Positions 42,374 through 48,796 of a stretch of DNA of 50,452 bases are shown one piece after another. The DNA is from Bacteroidales bacterium (lineage in GTDB: Bacteria > Bacteroidota > Bacteroidia > Bacteroidales > F082), in NCBI GenBank assembly GCA_017616735.1, contig JAFZXP010000023.1:1-50452 (forward strand). Reading direction: 5' to 3'. A program made the position numbers and the translations under genes. Below the pieces are notes generated by a model that was given only the letters and a program-made list of their open reading frames with translations, was not told the origin of the DNA and did not search any database. Each line of letters starts with the position of its first letter. Position 1 is the first letter of the stretch.

Positions 42374-43158
42374 GACTGGTCAGATGGTTGATAACGGCAG
42401 CGTTGATGTCGGCCTTCTCAATTGCGAGAGGGCAGGACGATGTCACTGTGCTCGATCAAATCGACTTCAGCGACACCACGCTCATAGGCTCGGAATACTT
42501 GAACAAAACAATTGCCGATTACGTCGACTCGAATCAGGAGTACGATATGATTCTTGCGGCTGACAATGTTTTGGCCTATGCCAGCTCCAATTATGAGATG
42601 TACAAATATGTGTATCAGTTTTTGATTAGCGGTTTCTCGGCTCTTGGGGCCAATATGGTGGTTGACTATATGGTGAGGCTGCCGTATTTTGAGTTTGTCG
42701 ACGCCAGCGAAGAGCAATCGGCCGAGATGAATGCCATAGCAGAGTCGTATGTTAGAGTCAGAATAGGGGCGAAAGCTCCGGCGATAAAGGCTGCCACCAT
42801 AAAAGGAAAGCCATTTGACCTTTATGAAATTGATACTGAATACACGCTGATTTTGTTTTGGTCGCCCTCTTGCCCGCATTGCACCGATATGATAAAGGAT
42901 TTGGCAAGATTTGTTTCGAAACACGATAATGTGACTCTGGTGACTGTCAGCGTCGACGAAGATTTGCGTAAAGTTAAGAAAACGCTTAGAAAATCGAGGA
43001 TGAAGGGATATCATATCTGTGATGGTGAAGGCTGGAGTTCTCCCATTGCGAGCGACTATGCCGTCGATACCACACCTACGATGTTCCTTTTGTCGGACAA
43101 TATTATTGTAGCTAAACCATTTGATGTTGAAGAACTTATAACTTTTTTTGAGAAATGA
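42370..43158 (+). CDS. Exported thioredoxin-like protein (TlpA/ResA type)
   Basis: A 262-residue protein with a signal peptide (MRLVRWLITAALMSAFSIAR). The N-terminal half (25-130) is helical, as in Bacteroidota TlpA-like proteins. The thioredoxin fold begins at VRIGAKAPAIKAATIKGK, with active site SPSCPHC (Cys168 and Cys171) and the cis-proline region DTTPTMFLL. Expected to be a periplasmic thiol-disulfide reductase. Its CPHC dipeptide resembles DsbA rather than thioredoxin, so either a reducing or an oxidising role is possible. Shares ATGA with both neighbours. Confidence 0.88.
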   Translation: MRLVRWLITAALMSAFSIARGQDDVTVLDQIDFSDTTLIGSEYLNKTIADYVDSNQEYDMILAADNVLAYASSNYEMYKYVYQFLISGFSALGANMVVDYMVRLPYFEFVDASEEQSAEMNAIAESYVRVRIGAKAPAIKAATIKGKPFDLYEIDTEYTLILFWSPSCPHCTDMIKDLARFVSKHDNVTLVTVSVDEDLRKVKKTLRKSRMKGYHICDGEGWSSPIASDYAVDTTPTMFLLSDNIIVAKPFDVEELITFFEK

Positions 43159-46034
43159 GGAGACTGTGTTTTTGTATTATTGTTTTATTTGCGGCAACGG
43201 TTGCCAATGCTCAGACCGATGAAGACCGTTGGGTGGATTCAGTGTTCAACTCGTTGACTTTGGAACAACGGGTCGGTCAGCTTGTCAATGTCAGAGCCAA
43301 CAACCCGAATCAGGCTTTTATGCCATACATCGACAGTCTCGTTATTAAATATAATATTGGTGGCGTCACGTTTTTCCGTACCGACGCCGACCTTTTGCTG
43401 CAGCAGGCCAACCAGTGGCAGTCTTTAGCGCAGACACCTATGATGGTGGCAATTGACGCTGAATGGGGCTTGGGTATGCGCCTGAATGACGGCATGTCGT
43501 ATCCATTCCAGATGACGCTTGGCGCTATACAGAATCGTGAGCTGATAGCCGATATGGGGCAGCAAATAGCCGAGCAGTGCCGTCGATTGGGTATCAATGT
43601 GAATTTTGCTCCCGATGTCGATGTCAACAATGAGCCTACCAACCCTGTTATCGGAATGCGCAGCTTCGGCGACGACCCTCAGTCGGTGGCCGAACTCGGA
43701 ACACTGTATGCTTTGGCATTGCAGCGAAACGGGGTGCTGCCTACGATGAAGCATTTCCCGGGCCACGGCGATACAAAAAACGACTCGCATCTCACTTTGC
43801 CGGTCGTTGACAAAAAGCTGAAAAACATTCAGAAGACCGAGCTTTATCCATTCAAATACCTTATCGGACATGGGGTTAAAGGCGCTATGGTCGGACATCT
43901 TTACATGCCGGCGCTTGAACCGGTTAAAAACACTTCCTCGTCCCTTTCAAAAACCGTGGTTACCGATTTGCTGAAAAATGAAATGGGATTTGACGGCATA
44001 ATATTCACCGATGCTCTTGATATGAAAGGAGCTTACGTGCAACGCGATCCCGACAGCGTTGGCTTAAGGGCTCTAATGGCCGGCGACGACGTGCTGCTGA
44101 TGCCGTTGCATCCTCAGCAAACCTTGGAAGTGATCGTGGCGGCGGCTCATGACGACTATGAAGTTTATAAAAGGGTGGAGGAGTCGTGTAAAAAGGTGCT
44201 GCGATACAAATACCGCCTTGGACTTGTGCGCCTCCAGATTCAGCCTGAGCATTCGCTATACAACGATTTGCATCAGGCAAAATACGACAATCTCAAACAG
44301 CGTCTCTACAACGAGGCCGTGACAATGCTTCGCAATCGGAACGATGTTTTGCCTTTGGACAAGGCACAATCGCTGGCTGTCATAACCTTTGGCAAAACCG
44401 ACAACATGGCCAAAAAACTCAAGGCCGAAGGCTATAATGTACGCTCGTATCTGATTGGAGAAAAGCTGAATAAGAACGAAAGACAACGGATTATCAAGGA
44501 ATTGGGCGCGTATAATGTGGTGATTGTCAGCGTGCAGAATACCTCAATCTTTCATTACAAAGGCTTTGGAATCACTGCCGAAACGCTGGAGTTTGTAAAA
44601 GAGATAAGCGCCAAATACAGAGTGGTATTCGATTTGTTTGCCTGCCCGTATGCCTTGAATAAGTTTGATTTCAAGAAAGATCCGGCAGCCATTATCATTG
44701 GCTATGAAGACAACCCGATGTCGGTTAATGCCGTTGTCGATGTGATGACCGGCCGGCAGAATCCTATCGGACGTTTGCCTGTGAGCATCAAGAAATACAA
44801 GAAGGGCGACGGACTTAGCTTTGAGGGTATGCTTACTCCTGAGACGTTGCCTGTTGAGCTTGTTGACAACAAATACACCGCCAAAGTCGACTCCATAGCG
44901 CTTGACGGAATCGCGATGAAAGCTTATCCAGGCTGTCAGATTTTTGCCATGAAAGACGGAAAAGTGATCTACGACAAGTGTTTTGGCACGTTTACCTACG
45001 ACGACGAGCACGAGGTGCAAGCCGATGATGTCTATGACATTGCATCGCTGACCAAGGTGTTCGCCACCACTTTCGCCATCATGAAACTATACGACGAGGG
45101 AAAGCTGAGCTTGGAAAGCAAGCTGGGCGATTATTTCCCTTATCTGCGCAAAACCGACAAAGGCGATGTGACACTGATTGAAATTATGACGCATCAGGCT
45201 GGCCTCACATCATGGATACCTTTATATAAAAACACTATAGTGAATGGCAAGCCTGATGCAGGATTGTACCGCAATGAGATAGACGAGGAGCATACTGTGC
45301 GCGTGGCTAAAGGCATGTACATATCGGATGATTTCCGCTTTGAGCTTTTCGAGACGATAAAAGATTCCCCAATGGCTGAAAAGAAGTACAAATACAGCGA
45401 TATGGGCTTTTATTATATGCCTAAGATTGTGGAGATGATAACAAACATGCCGTTTGAAAAATATCTCGAGGAGAACTTCTACAAGCCGCTTAATCTGAAT
45501 CACATCTTTTATAAACCATTGAAACACATCGATGTGGAGAAGATTGCACCCACCGAGAACGACACGGTTTTCAGAATGCAGCTGTTGCGTGGCGACGTTC
45601 ACGATCAGGCGGCGGCATTGATGGGTGGCGTTTCGGGGCATGCCGGCCTTTTTGCCGCCGCCCGCGATCTGGCCGTCATGATGCAGCTGCTGCTTGACAA
45701 CGGATACGCCAACAACCGTCAGTTCCTCTCGGAATATACAATCAGGAAGTTTACATCGGCACCATTTGCCGACAATATGAACCGTCGCGGCATAGGCTTC
45801 GACAAGCCTGAGGTTGACCCGAGCGTACCATACTACACACCAGCCAAACAGTCTTCGATGCGGAGCTTCGGACATACTGGATTTACAGGCACTTTCGCAT
45901 GGGCCGACCCGGAGAACAATCTGATAGTGATATTCCTGTCAAATCGTGTGTATCCTGACGCTTCCAACAATAAATTGTCACAAAACGACATTCGCACAAA
46001 GATTCACGAAGCGTTTTATGAGGCGGTAAAATAA
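43155..46034 (+). CDS. GH3 beta-N-acetylhexosaminidase fused to a class C beta-lactamase-like serine hydrolase
   Basis: A 959-residue exported protein (signal ending ANAQ). Residues about 25-350 are a NagZ-type GH3 domain: KHFPGHGDTKNDSH (His204, Asp210, His212), with nucleophile Asp286 in FTDALDMKGA. The GH3 C-terminal domain covers about 370-560. From about 590 a beta-lactamase/esterase domain follows: Ser631-x-x-Lys634 (IASLTKVF), tyrosine motif YSDMGFYY, and HTGFTGT in place of KTG. In Bacillus, NagZ and AmiE (an amidase of the same serine-hydrolase family) act in sequence on muropeptides, so this chain probably removes GlcNAc and then cleaves the MurNAc-peptide bond. Peptidoglycan turnover fits the downstream murL and murD2 genes. 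Confidence 0.88.
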   Translation: MRRLCFCIIVLFAATVANAQTDEDRWVDSVFNSLTLEQRVGQLVNVRANNPNQAFMPYIDSLVIKYNIGGVTFFRTDADLLLQQANQWQSLAQTPMMVAIDAEWGLGMRLNDGMSYPFQMTLGAIQNRELIADMGQQIAEQCRRLGINVNFAPDVDVNNEPTNPVIGMRSFGDDPQSVAELGTLYALALQRNGVLPTMKHFPGHGDTKNDSHLTLPVVDKKLKNIQKTELYPFKYLIGHGVKGAMVGHLYMPALEPVKNTSSSLSKTVVTDLLKNEMGFDGIIFTDALDMKGAYVQRDPDSVGLRALMAGDDVLLMPLHPQQTLEVIVAAAHDDYEVYKRVEESCKKVLRYKYRLGLVRLQIQPEHSLYNDLHQAKYDNLKQRLYNEAVTMLRNRNDVLPLDKAQSLAVITFGKTDNMAKKLKAEGYNVRSYLIGEKLNKNERQRIIKELGAYNVVIVSVQNTSIFHYKGFGITAETLEFVKEISAKYRVVFDLFACPYALNKFDFKKDPAAIIIGYEDNPMSVNAVVDVMTGRQNPIGRLPVSIKKYKKGDGLSFEGMLTPETLPVELVDNKYTAKVDSIALDGIAMKAYPGCQIFAMKDGKVIYDKCFGTFTYDDEHEVQADDVYDIASLTKVFATTFAIMKLYDEGKLSLESKLGDYFPYLRKTDKGDVTLIEIMTHQAGLTSWIPLYKNTIVNGKPDAGLYRNEIDEEHTVRVAKGMYISDDFRFELFETIKDSPMAEKKYKYSDMGFYYMPKIVEMITNMPFEKYLEENFYKPLNLNHIFYKPLKHIDVEKIAPTENDTVFRMQLLRGDVHDQAAALMGGVSGHAGLFAAARDLAVMMQLLLDNGYANNRQFLSEYTIRKFTSAPFADNMNRRGIGFDKPEVDPSVPYYTPAKQSSMRSFGHTGFTGTFAWADPENNLIVIFLSNRVYPDASNNKLSQNDIRTKIHEAFYEAVK

Positions 46035-46062: not shown

Positions 46063-47514
46063 ATGTCAAATCAAGCGAAATATGATGAATTGAGAGAAAC
46101 ATTCGAGCGTTTCTGTTATAAAGGTTTCCATTATTCAGTGGAAAAAGGAGAGTTTTTCGCTGAATTTGACTTTGCTCTCACCCCACGTCATTTCGACCGA
46201 AGCGAAGCGGAGCGGAGAAATCTCAAGCAAATAGAATTTCACCCTTGTTTCCGCATTCCGGCCCGTCAGTTCTATCATTGGGATGCGATTCCCAAGCCAC
46301 TTCTCGACAATTTGATTTTTCATATTGGAATGATTGAGCTGATTAGCTATTGGAAGATTGCGTGCCCACAAAAGGTGGTCGTCGAGCCGTTCGCTTTGGA
46401 TGATGACCAGATTCGCTGGTGGAAGAAGTTGTATTTCAATGGGTTAGGGGAGTTTTTCTATGTTAATGGCATCACAACGAGTCTCGACGATTTCATGACC
46501 ATTATACCCACACCGTCATTTCGACCGGAGCGGAGCGAAGTGGAGACCCGAGCACAGCGAGAGCTTTCATCACAGGTGAAAAAATCTCCGGCACACAACG
46601 GCTTTTTACAAGAGCAGACTATCATTCCCGTCGGCGGCGGCAAGGATTCCGTCGTCACGTTGGAAATACTGAAGTCGCGTCTGCCCATCATCCCGATGAT
46701 TATCAATCCACGCGGCGCCACCACGCAGTGCGTAGCCGCCGCCGGTCTTGACGAGCAGCACACCGCCATTGTGCATCGCACACTCGATCCGACCATGCTT
46801 CGCATGAACGCCGAAGGATATCTTAACGGACATACTCCGTTCTCGGCCATGCTGGCGTTTTACACCATACTGATAGGTTTCGCCACGCAAAGCAAATACA
46901 TAGCCTTGTCAAACGAGTCGTCGGCCAACGAGCCTACAGTACCTGATACTGAGATTAATCATCAATACAGCAAGTCGGTGCAGTTCGAAAACGACTTCCG
47001 AAGCTATGTCGCTAAGTATATTGATGCTGATATTCAGTATTTTAGCTTTTTGCGTCCACTCAACGAACTGCAGATTGCCATGCTTTTTAGCCGTGCCAAA
47101 GCTTATCATAAAGTCTTTAAGAGTTGCAATGCCGGCTCCAAAACCGACTCGTGGTGCGGCCGTTGCCCCAAGTGTCTGTTTACCTGGCTGGCGCTTTCGC
47201 CATTTATCAGTCGCGATGAACTGACCGGGATATTCGGCAAAGATTTGCTCTCGGATGTCGGCCTGCGTCCGATTCTCGACCAGCTTGACGGATCGGTTGA
47301 GGTGAAGCCTTTTGAGTGCGTCGGCACGGTGGGCGAGGTGAGAGCCTGTGTCAATCATATATTGCAACACGATAAAGCCTTAAACAGCACCATACTCGAC
47401 GGCGTCACTCCAACAGGCGATATGACCGTCGGCGACTACATCTCGCAGTTTGACCAAGGCAACAATCTCCCGCCTAAGTTTAAAAACATATTGAAGGAGG
47501 CTCTGAATGATTAG
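46063..47514 (+). CDS. murL: UDP-MurNAc-L-Ala-L-Glu epimerase (MurL) with two repeat-derived insertions
   Basis: A 483-residue protein. The PP-loop-like ATP site VGGGKDSVVTLE is at 190-201. Conserved MurL stretches as I recall them follow: YLNGHTPFSAM, ALSNESSANEP, EINHQYSKSVQFENDF, FLRPLNELQIA, SCNAGSKTDSWCGRCPKCLF, IFGKDLL and KPFECVGT. MurL was characterised in Xanthomonas oryzae: it inverts the terminal L-Glu of UDP-MurNAc-L-Ala-L-Glu to D-Glu, replacing glutamate racemase. Two family A repeats sit in the N-terminal domain, RHFDRSEAERRNL (about 42-54) and SFRPERSEVETRAQRELSS (about 151-170), each in a different frame and both outside the conserved motifs. It overlaps murD2 by 8 bases. Probably active, because all motifs after residue 185 are intact. 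Confidence 0.87.
   Translation: MSNQAKYDELRETFERFCYKGFHYSVEKGEFFAEFDFALTPRHFDRSEAERRNLKQIEFHPCFRIPARQFYHWDAIPKPLLDNLIFHIGMIELISYWKIACPQKVVVEPFALDDDQIRWWKKLYFNGLGEFFYVNGITTSLDDFMTIIPTPSFRPERSEVETRAQRELSSQVKKSPAHNGFLQEQTIIPVGGGKDSVVTLEILKSRLPIIPMIINPRGATTQCVAAAGLDEQHTAIVHRTLDPTMLRMNAEGYLNGHTPFSAMLAFYTILIGFATQSKYIALSNESSANEPTVPDTEINHQYSKSVQFENDFRSYVAKYIDADIQYFSFLRPLNELQIAMLFSRAKAYHKVFKSCNAGSKTDSWCGRCPKCLFTWLALSPFISRDELTGIFGKDLLSDVGLRPILDQLDGSVEVKPFECVGTVGEVRACVNHILQHDKALNSTILDGVTPTGDMTVGDYISQFDQGNNLPPKFKNILKEALND
46186..46225 (+). repeat. Family A dispersed repeat, copy 6 (in murL)
   Basis: CGTCATTTCGACCGAAGCGA, then AGCGGAGCGGAGAAATCTCA. Almost identical to the intergenic copy at 37451. Read as RHFDRSEAERRNL. 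Confidence 0.9.
46514..46570 (+). repeat. Family A dispersed repeat, copy 7 (in murL, longer form)
   Basis: CGTCATTTCGACCGGAGCGG, then AGCGAAGTGGAGACCCGAGC and ACAGCGAGAGCTTTCAT. Read one frame apart from copy 6, as PSFRPERSEVETRAQ. Confidence 0.85.
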
Positions 47515-48796
47515 AATCAACACTATTTTCAAACGTTTAAGAGGAAAACGCATCCTCATACTCGGATTCGGCCGCGAAGGCAAATCGTCGCTGGCTTTCA
47601 TACAGAAATTTCTTCCTCATGCCACTGTCGGTGTGGCCGACCGAAACGCCGAAGCTTTCAATGACTTGAATGTCAACAATCTTAACCCGATAGCCACCTA
47701 TTCGGGCGAGGATTACTGGAAAGCAATCAATTATTACGACATAGTGCTGAAAACCCCAGGCATCTCGTTGAAAGACAAAGATGTCGATCTTTCAAAAATC
47801 ACTTCCCAAACCGATTTGTTTCTGGAAGATTTTCATAAGCAGATTATCGGCGTCACAGGCACAAAGGGCAAAAGCACCACATCAACGCTGATTTATCATT
47901 TGCTGAAAGAGTCGGGGAGAGACGCGTTCTTGGCCGGCAATATCGGCATCCCTATTTTCGATATCATCGATAAAATCAACAACCGATCGATAATAGTGTT
48001 CGAGCTTTCGGCTCACCAGTTGCAGTTTATCCATCGCAGCCCTCATATCGGCATACTGCTCAACGTCTTCGAGGAGCATCTCGACCATTTCGGCACATTT
48101 GAATCGTATCGTGACGCCAAGTTCAATATAATCAGGAAGATGGATGAGCACGACTGGGCCGTCACCAATGGCGAGTTCAGTTATCAGGCATCACAGCTGA
48201 TGCTGCATTCGCTCAATTATCAGTATTACGACTTTAATGTCGATTGGGACAAGCTGCCGCTGAAGGGCGATCATAACCGCTTGAATGTCAAAGCGGCGCT
48301 CTGTGCGATTCAGGCCTACGGCATACCGGTTGATGAGGTTATTCCATATTTGTACACCTTCAAGCCGCTTGAGCACCGTCAGGAGCTGGTTGGCACTTTC
48401 CACGATGTGACATTCTATAATGATAGTATTTCTACTATCCCTCAGGCAACCATAGCCGCCGTGCAGACTGTTAAAAATGTCAAGTTTCTGCTTTTGGGAG
48501 GATTTGACCGCGAGATTGACTATACTCCTCTTATTAATTATCTGATTGCAAATCCGTTGAAACACATACTTTACACTGGCAAAGCCGGCTGCAGAATGTA
48601 TGACATGCTCCAAACTGCAGGTTATAAAGGCGAAGCTGAGCGATTTGACAATCTTGAGGAAGCATTCGCGATAATAAAACAGAAAGCCGAAAAAGGCGAT
48701 GTGGTATTGCTTTCTCCGGCTGCTGCAAGCTACGACCAATACAAGAATTTCGAGCAACGAGGCTCGAAATTCAAGGAGTTGGCCAGTAAATTCTAA
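47507..48796 (+). CDS. murD2: UDP-N-acetylmuramoyl-L-alanine-L-glutamate ligase (MurD2)
   Basis: A 429-residue Mur ligase. The N-terminal Rossmann part has ILILGFGREGKSS, the ATP P-loop GVTGTKGKSTT is at 115-125, and NIGIPIFD, LSAHQLQ and EHLDHFGTFESY follow. The C-terminal domain has LEHRQELVGTFHDVTFYNDSISTIPQ in two adjoining stretches: NDSIST stands where classical MurD has NDSKAT, a difference I associate with the MurD2 form that adds L-Glu rather than D-Glu. Next to murL this gives a full route: MurD2 adds L-Glu to UDP-MurNAc-L-Ala, and MurL then epimerises it. Cytoplasmic. A classical murD may still exist elsewhere in the genome. Confidence 0.85.
   Translation: MIRINTIFKRLRGKRILILGFGREGKSSLAFIQKFLPHATVGVADRNAEAFNDLNVNNLNPIATYSGEDYWKAINYYDIVLKTPGISLKDKDVDLSKITSQTDLFLEDFHKQIIGVTGTKGKSTTSTLIYHLLKESGRDAFLAGNIGIPIFDIIDKINNRSIIVFELSAHQLQFIHRSPHIGILLNVFEEHLDHFGTFESYRDAKFNIIRKMDEHDWAVTNGEFSYQASQLMLHSLNYQYYDFNVDWDKLPLKGDHNRLNVKAALCAIQAYGIPVDEVIPYLYTFKPLEHRQELVGTFHDVTFYNDSISTIPQATIAAVQTVKNVKFLLLGGFDREIDYTPLINYLIANPLKHILYTGKAGCRMYDMLQTAGYKGEAERFDNLEEAFAIIKQKAEKGDVVLLSPAAASYDQYKNFEQRGSKFKELASKF

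Follow-up and report, generated by a model that had tools for sequence, protein, structure and literature searches.

A probable MurD2/MurL route to D-glutamate in Bacteroidales whose classical MurD is often reduced to its C-terminal domain

The murL–murD2 pair

The 50,452-nucleotide stretch analysed here (hereafter the window; contig JAFZXP010000023.1 of the Bacteroidales assembly GCA_017616735.1) carries two overlapping forward-strand genes that the initial annotation had read as a MurL–MurD2 pair at 46063..48796, an alternative route to D-glutamate (D-Glu) in peptidoglycan. Open reading frames with exactly these limits are present: murL at 46063-47514 (+, 483 amino acids, aa) and murD2 at 47507-48796 (+, 429 aa), overlapping by 8 bases. 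The first was assigned from the list of open reading frames and its match to a MurL model, the second from its match to a MurD model, residue counts and direct alignment with E. coli MurD (PDB 2jff).

The MurL frame matches the NCBIfam model NF041275 (MurL epimerase, Xanthomonadales) over residues 89-436 with E 1.6e-71, and the MurD2 frame matches TIGR01087 (murD) with E 3.6e-97 and 326 bits, above the 212-bit cut-off. At these E values, a chance match was rejected for both proteins. What tells against the MurL assignment is a score of 241 bits, below the 700-bit cut-off of a model that represents Xanthomonadales proteins. The motifs named in the initial annotation are present: in a 28-row MurL alignment, GGGKDS (residues 191-196), SNESSANE (283-290), NHQYSK (299-304), C355/C365/C368/C371 and KPFECVGT (415-422) are invariant or nearly so, and each of six motif patterns occurs in 52 or 53 of the 53 MurL frames from an order set of 149 sampled Bacteroidales genomes. 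Their label as MurL motifs derives from the NF041275 match and from that earlier recognition.

Structure prediction assigns MurL a QueC-like ATP-pyrophosphatase fold, with the QueC/QatC match running from about residue 183 onward. The PP-loop GGGKDS (46633-46650, +) and a predicted metal site, C355...C365-X2-C368-X2-C371 (47125-47175, +), are invariant in both MurL alignments; we take the four-cysteine cluster to resemble the Cys4 site of QueC. MurL shares the PP-loop and predicted fold with QueC (PDB 2pg3, 3bl5), QatC (9y01, 9y02) and Cap9 (9nto), and the structural alignment with QatC spans residues 13-446 of the model; sequence identity is 9-16%, and substrate and product differ. Sequence searches yielded fainter signals. 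Pfam-A gave no match to the window MurL at 0.001; with the threshold relaxed to E 1, DUF6395 was hit in 26 of the 28 aligned MurLs (best 5e-05) and QueC appears weakly in 8 of them (best E 0.018). Matches to PDB sequences were weak and of PP-loop type, such as TtuA (1.2e-4 across the PP-loop), and no PADLOC defence model matches MurL. The modelled QueC/QatC-type fold would be fitting for the published AMP-forming reaction, and we infer adenylation chemistry for MurL.

The MurD2 protein aligns with classical MurD (TIGR01087; E. coli 1e0d, 2jff) across the whole ligase but departs from it at the positions of E. coli D182, K319 and K348 and in the P-loop. It carries the P-loop GTKGKST, the NDSIST variant noted in the initial annotation, and GGFDR. 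Direct alignment with 2jff places E190, I308 and R335 opposite D182, K319 and K348. Across 44 MurD2 frames, the D182 position holds E in 42 (one D, one gap), the K348 position R in 42 (two gaps) and the K319 position I in 42 (two gaps); all 35 full classical MurDs examined hold D, K and K at D182, K319 and K348. The classical signature (D182, K319, K348 and a GxNGK-type P-loop) is thus replaced in the window ligase by E, I, R and GTKGK. PMC8788868, in its sections on stereospecificity, reports that the double change E197D/R358K switches X. oryzae MurD2 to D-Glu (the two residues correspond to D182 and K348 in E. coli) and that E. coli MurD K319T accepts L-Glu. The comparison supports the 429-aa ligase as a MurD2 with putative L-Glu-type residues at three positions of glutamate stereospecificity.

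Could the ligase instead be a classical D-Glu MurD that has moved, with MurL serving another job? It does exceed the TIGR01087 cut-off, one MurD2, that of G034, carries D opposite D182, and R at the K348 position is not diagnostic alone, being found in 3lk7 and, as reported in PMC8788868's treatment of that residue, in S. mutans MurD. Yet the combination E190/I308/R335 with GTKGKST is absent from all 35 classical MurDs, MurL adjoins MurD2 in 79 of 80 named loci, and no MurL-match genome of the sample has MurI over cut-off, so that a relocated MurD is hardly credible. The specificity residues and the lack of MurI over cut-off support the MurL–MurD2 identity first proposed.

Source of D-glutamate and spread of the pair

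Glutamate racemase MurI (TIGR00067) is over cut-off in 0 of 1 window genome, 0 of 10 genomes of the genus and 0 of 80 of the family, in line with the earlier suggestion that the lineage may lack it. The window genome is a 2.08-Mb metagenome-assembled genome (MAG), 80.5% complete; because it is incomplete and also gives no rpoB match, its relatives carry the argument from MurI absence.

In the order set, MurL matches 55 of the 149 genomes: 53 as readable frames, one as a fragment at a contig end (G052), and one in G075. The G075 match was judged spurious (39 residues, an internal stop, no MurD2-like match above classical level), leaving 54. MurI is over cut-off in 89 of the 149, and comparison of the two lists by hand found no genome in both. 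Six genomes (G015, G075, G088, G118, G126, G127) lack both a MurI over cut-off and a credible MurL. With MurL in 54 of 149 sampled genomes, the pair is not the unusual find in Bacteroidales that it was first taken for; MurD2/MurL looks like the usual route of a large, mostly uncultured Bacteroidales clade rather than an oddity, as judged from gene content.

Several observations pull the other way. Besides the weak value of the window MAG's own absences, given its undetectable rpoB, sub-cut-off matches to the MurI model occur in 11 of the 55 MurL-match genomes (E 1.5e-5 to 6.6e-13) and in 29 of the 80 family genomes; they resemble other Asp/Glu racemases and could supply D-Glu. D-amino-acid transaminase (TIGR01121) is over cut-off in only 1 of 149 genomes, a MurI+ one, under a strict model that also recovers only 1 of 14 controls; several genomes have class IV aminotransferases, roughly 280-300 aa long, that score below its cut-off, and with so strict a model a transaminase route is conceivable. 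We nevertheless regard it as very probable, from the gene inventory, that MurD2/MurL is the only recognised route by which D-Glu enters peptidoglycan in this lineage: MurD2 would add L-glutamate, and MurL would then flip it.

A sample of the phylum contained MurL in 1 of 395 genomes at E 1e-30, the window's own, and few members of the order; as far as this sample goes, MurL within Bacteroidota looks confined to part of Bacteroidales. Phylogenetic analysis of concatenated RpoB and RpoC (58 rows; the window genome, G000, and G046 are absent, with no rpoB match) gathered 46 of 46 MurL+ rows beneath a single starred 100/100 branch, which also holds the MurI+ genome G086 and G075. The MurL/MurI state requires two changes on this tree, and one old switch to MurL plus one reversal fit the data; G086, a MurI+ genome nested in the MurL+ clade, would be an apparent switch back. 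Distances among MurLs correlate only moderately with those from RpoBC (Mantel 0.33, p 0.004), and 7 cherries are common to the MurL tree (17 cherries) and the species tree (16); this moderate agreement leaves room for some transfer.

When named genomes were searched with the MurL alignment, at least 584 stretches were returned, at least 570 of them encoding relatives, and 80 loci were kept. Among the matches listed, the closest relatives come from uncultured Bacteroidales, with record titles pointing to rumen and gut samples, and the more distant ones include a Lentimicrobium MAG (L214/G188), in which a full MurD accompanies the pair, and, from another phylum, Pseudobutyrivibrio xylanivorans DSM 14809 (L227). 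The pair is present in Pseudobutyrivibrio (Lachnospiraceae, Bacillota; L221, L227), a group not named in the sections on this route of either review (PMC8788868, PMC5808125). MurD2 lies away from MurL in six order-set genomes (G001, G045, G050, G071, G077, G120). In G054 (L125, L080), a 92%-complete genome, MurL and a MurD fragment are present and a search at E 1e-15 recovered no MurD2. Two genomes encode MurL and MurD2 as a single frame with the motifs of both (G107, L145, 937 aa; G079, L143, 876 aa).

The best-known system is that of Xanthomonas oryzae, whose MurD2/MurL are XOO_1320/XOO_1319; orthologues from Micromonospora and Salinispora have also been assayed, according to PMC8788868 and PMC5808125. 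The Bacteroidales system resembles it in its adjacent genes, MurL profile match, L-Glu-type MurD-like ligase and lack of MurI over cut-off. It differs in its host, in a MurL score under the Xanthomonadales cut-off, in occasional MurL–MurD2 fusion and in a MurD C-domain remnant in the dcw (division and cell wall) cluster. In their passages on distribution, the two reviews name Proteobacteria, Actinobacteria and some low-similarity relatives, with Bacteroidota unnamed (PMC8788868, PMC5808125). A literature search, mainly of open papers and with preprints outside its scope, found no report of MurL/MurD2 in Bacteroidota, of the QueC likeness of MurL or of a truncated dcw MurD in such bacteria. A paper on a "truncated MurD" is reportedly a study of an Acinetobacter protein.

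The classical MurD and its remaining C-terminal domain

In the window genome, the dcw cluster on contig C17 reads penicillin-binding protein, murE, mraY, a 178-aa frame, ftsW, murG, murC. The 178-aa frame (G000:C17:11920-12453, equivalent to L016:8918-9454, - strand) begins 11 bases past mraY and ends 6 bases ahead of ftsW. It matches TIGR01087 only at positions 278-421 (282-421 in a second search) and aligns with E. coli MurD 295-433; the first two MurD domains are gone. Mur_ligase_C is its sole Pfam match over cut-off, with none to the ATP-binding domain Mur_ligase_M. In this genome no murD match other than MurD2 exceeds the cut-off, and no second classical MurD was found among its seven Mur_ligase_M proteins (MurC, MurE, MurF, a MurF-Alr fusion, a MurC/Mpl homologue, FolC and MurD2). 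A search for classical murD, proposed with the initial annotation, thus recovers no full copy, only this C-terminal domain. MurF is encoded twice in the genome, once as a fusion with alanine racemase (L002, G000:C3; L003, G000:C53).

A query with the MurD C-domain matched 144 of the 149 order-set genomes, and no listed match contains an internal stop. Among the 54 MurL+ genomes it matched 51: 22 closed short frames (176-187 aa), 26 full-length frames and 3 left out as unreadable, where short frames run off contig ends (G052, G095, G107). Among MurI+ genomes it matched 88 of 89, all with a frame of at least 422 aa (eight read). The short form therefore occurs in 22 of 48 readable MurL+ genomes versus 0 of 88 readable MurI+ genomes; the MurI+ genome G006 has, in addition to a frame of 436 aa, a second match of 111 aa on a different contig. 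Five of the six genomes with neither gene matched, all at full length. The same search of 40 genomes that we chose from the 80 named loci matched 36 (31 short frames, 5 full), of which 30 were read (25 closed short, 5 full). The Pseudobutyrivibrio genomes of L221 and L227 gave no match to this query.

Together these searches yielded 47 distinct closed fragments of 176-215 aa (commonest length 182, in 14 of 47), none identical and only two pairs above 90% identity. Fragments lie between mraY and ftsW in 44 of 47 cases and beside ftsW in all 47; upstream of the remaining three stands murE in G150 (L241) and G151 (L242) and a contig end in G005. An assembly artefact as the general cause of short murD was rejected on the strength of the 47 distinct closed frames. 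In the dcw cluster of G071 (L082), murE is split into two overlapping frames.

The history of the short form points to repeated events. On the RpoB+RpoC tree it requires 13 changes, at least 7 of them forced by starred branches, and a single clade is rejected (approximately unbiased test, p 2e-44). A separate tree of dcw genes (39 rows, MurI+ genomes excluded) again joins truncated with full-length sisters (G049/G051, G034/G148, G140/G026), and the surrounding cluster therefore appears to have been inherited with the genome. A single truncation, followed by regain of full-length murD through recombination in several lineages, would accommodate the same start Met and similar size of most copies; it would also accommodate a C-domain tree that groups many truncated copies near each other. 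That tree (181 columns) is too weak to confirm repeated truncation, showing 7 changes with 1 forced and long branches, and the G140 domain ranks that of its sister G026 at 20 of 56, not closest; both points count against several independent cuts. The 13 changes, the rejected clade and the recurring sister pairs make a single cut with later regain unlikely. The shared start, moreover, arises because the Met already lies inside full-length MurD: the fragment start aligns with it in 42 of 47 fragments and 33 of 35 full proteins (9/9 and 24/26). Repeated truncation of murD remains the likely course.

Is the remaining domain a working protein? Fragments retain D317, W347 and V369 in 47/47 and R302 as R or K in 47/47 (W347 and V369, like S333, Y336 and L418 below, are numbered on the G065 protein). 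Changes found mainly in fragments are S333A (39/47), Y336F (33/47) and L418F (32/47). Among seven close relatives, the ratio of nonsynonymous to synonymous substitution (dN/dS) of the fragment is 0.06-0.23 in 15 of 21 pairs (6 with infinite dS), compared with 0.06-0.26 for FtsW (21/21 pairs) and 0.04-0.08 for MraY (9/10 pairs); a caution against leaning on these figures is that dS is near saturation, which makes them rough.

A slowly decaying, functionless pseudogene would explain why catalytic residues are mostly lost (the GxHN His kept in 1/47, K348 in 9/47, K319 in 17/47), why the branches leading to some copies are very long (G071, G079, G034, G054) and why 3 of 54 MurL+ genomes (G020, G077, G129) have no match, the domain there being perhaps lost or too diverged, an absence that also counts against a retained function. 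It would not account for 47 closed frames out of 50 short ones (the other 3 run off contig ends) with no internal stop among listed matches, for a dN/dS similar to that of the neighbouring FtsW, for four positions held in 47/47, or for adjacency to ftsW in 47/47, even in two genomes without mraY upstream. We therefore consider decay quite improbable and the leftover domain in all likelihood a working protein.

Lacking the ATP-binding domain, the leftover protein should not act as a Mur ligase, as far as its domain content predicts. PMC6420597, in its section on these complexes, describes binding of Thermotoga MurD, MurE and MurF by MurG and raises the possibility that MurG is a scaffold for the assembly of Mur enzymes. 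Retention of the domain next to ftsW, in most cases just after mraY, would be in keeping with an assembly of this type in a non-catalytic role. A scaffold function specifically is possible, and we put it forward with reserve. With slightly less reserve, and still tentatively, we propose that the MurD C-domain has a conserved non-catalytic job in wall synthesis or division that the switch to MurL/MurD2 unmasked, murD having been cut repeatedly and independently, mostly at the same internal Met, with the product held under purifying selection beside ftsW.

The chief difficulty for this account is that classical MurD remains complete in 26 of the 48 readable MurL+ genomes, and canonical at all ten counted positions; one example is L106 (G119), where it stands beside MurD2–MurL with no MurI over cut-off. 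These 26 enzymes look as if still used, a puzzle that the simple notion of a redundant MurD leaves unexplained. Such genomes may run both routes in parallel, with D-Glu obtained by scavenging, through a transaminase or through a racemase that escaped recognition. The intact residues in 26/26, the weak racemase-family matches in some MurL+ genomes and the sub-cut-off class IV aminotransferases in several genomes would fit this arrangement, to which we give somewhat less than an even chance. It is inapplicable to the window genome, whose classical MurD has no ATP-binding domain; the two routes envisaged at the outset thus fall away there, and a full classical MurD does accompany the pair in those 26 relatives.

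For the window genome and many relatives, we favour the following sequence as probable overall. MurD2/MurL would be the sole recognised route to D-Glu; with MurI gone, catalysis by classical MurD would have become dispensable; the dcw murD would then have been cut to its C-terminal domain, which was retained, most likely for a non-catalytic role in assembly or regulation.

Neighbouring genes and implications

Upstream, in the same closely spaced run as murL–murD2, lies a gene for a fusion of a GH3 domain with a beta-lactamase-type domain (43155-46034, +). The initial annotation had called it NagZ-like: the GH3 domain and the upstream position hold, but the protein is fused to the second domain and scores 156 bits against the 207-bit cut-off of the NagZ-type model PRK05337. 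The window's nearest relatives share the gene order HEAT protein, thioredoxin-like protein, GH3/beta-lactamase-type fusion, murL, murD2, which breaks up in more distant ones (20 loci inspected); the fusion gene is therefore local context that the pathway does not need.

The QueC/QatC fold offers a testable template for MurL chemistry. In its discussion of drug targets, PMC8788868 describes the MurD2/MurL route as confined to relatively few genera and proposes it as a narrow-spectrum target; with the pair in a clade that has many members from rumen and gut, by their record titles, and in Pseudobutyrivibrio, drugs against MurD2/MurL might hit commensals. The apparent repeated reduction of MurD provides a direct handle on the structural versus catalytic roles of Mur ligases. 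If the proposed reading is true, these bacteria would amount to a natural experiment in separating the functions of a Mur ligase.

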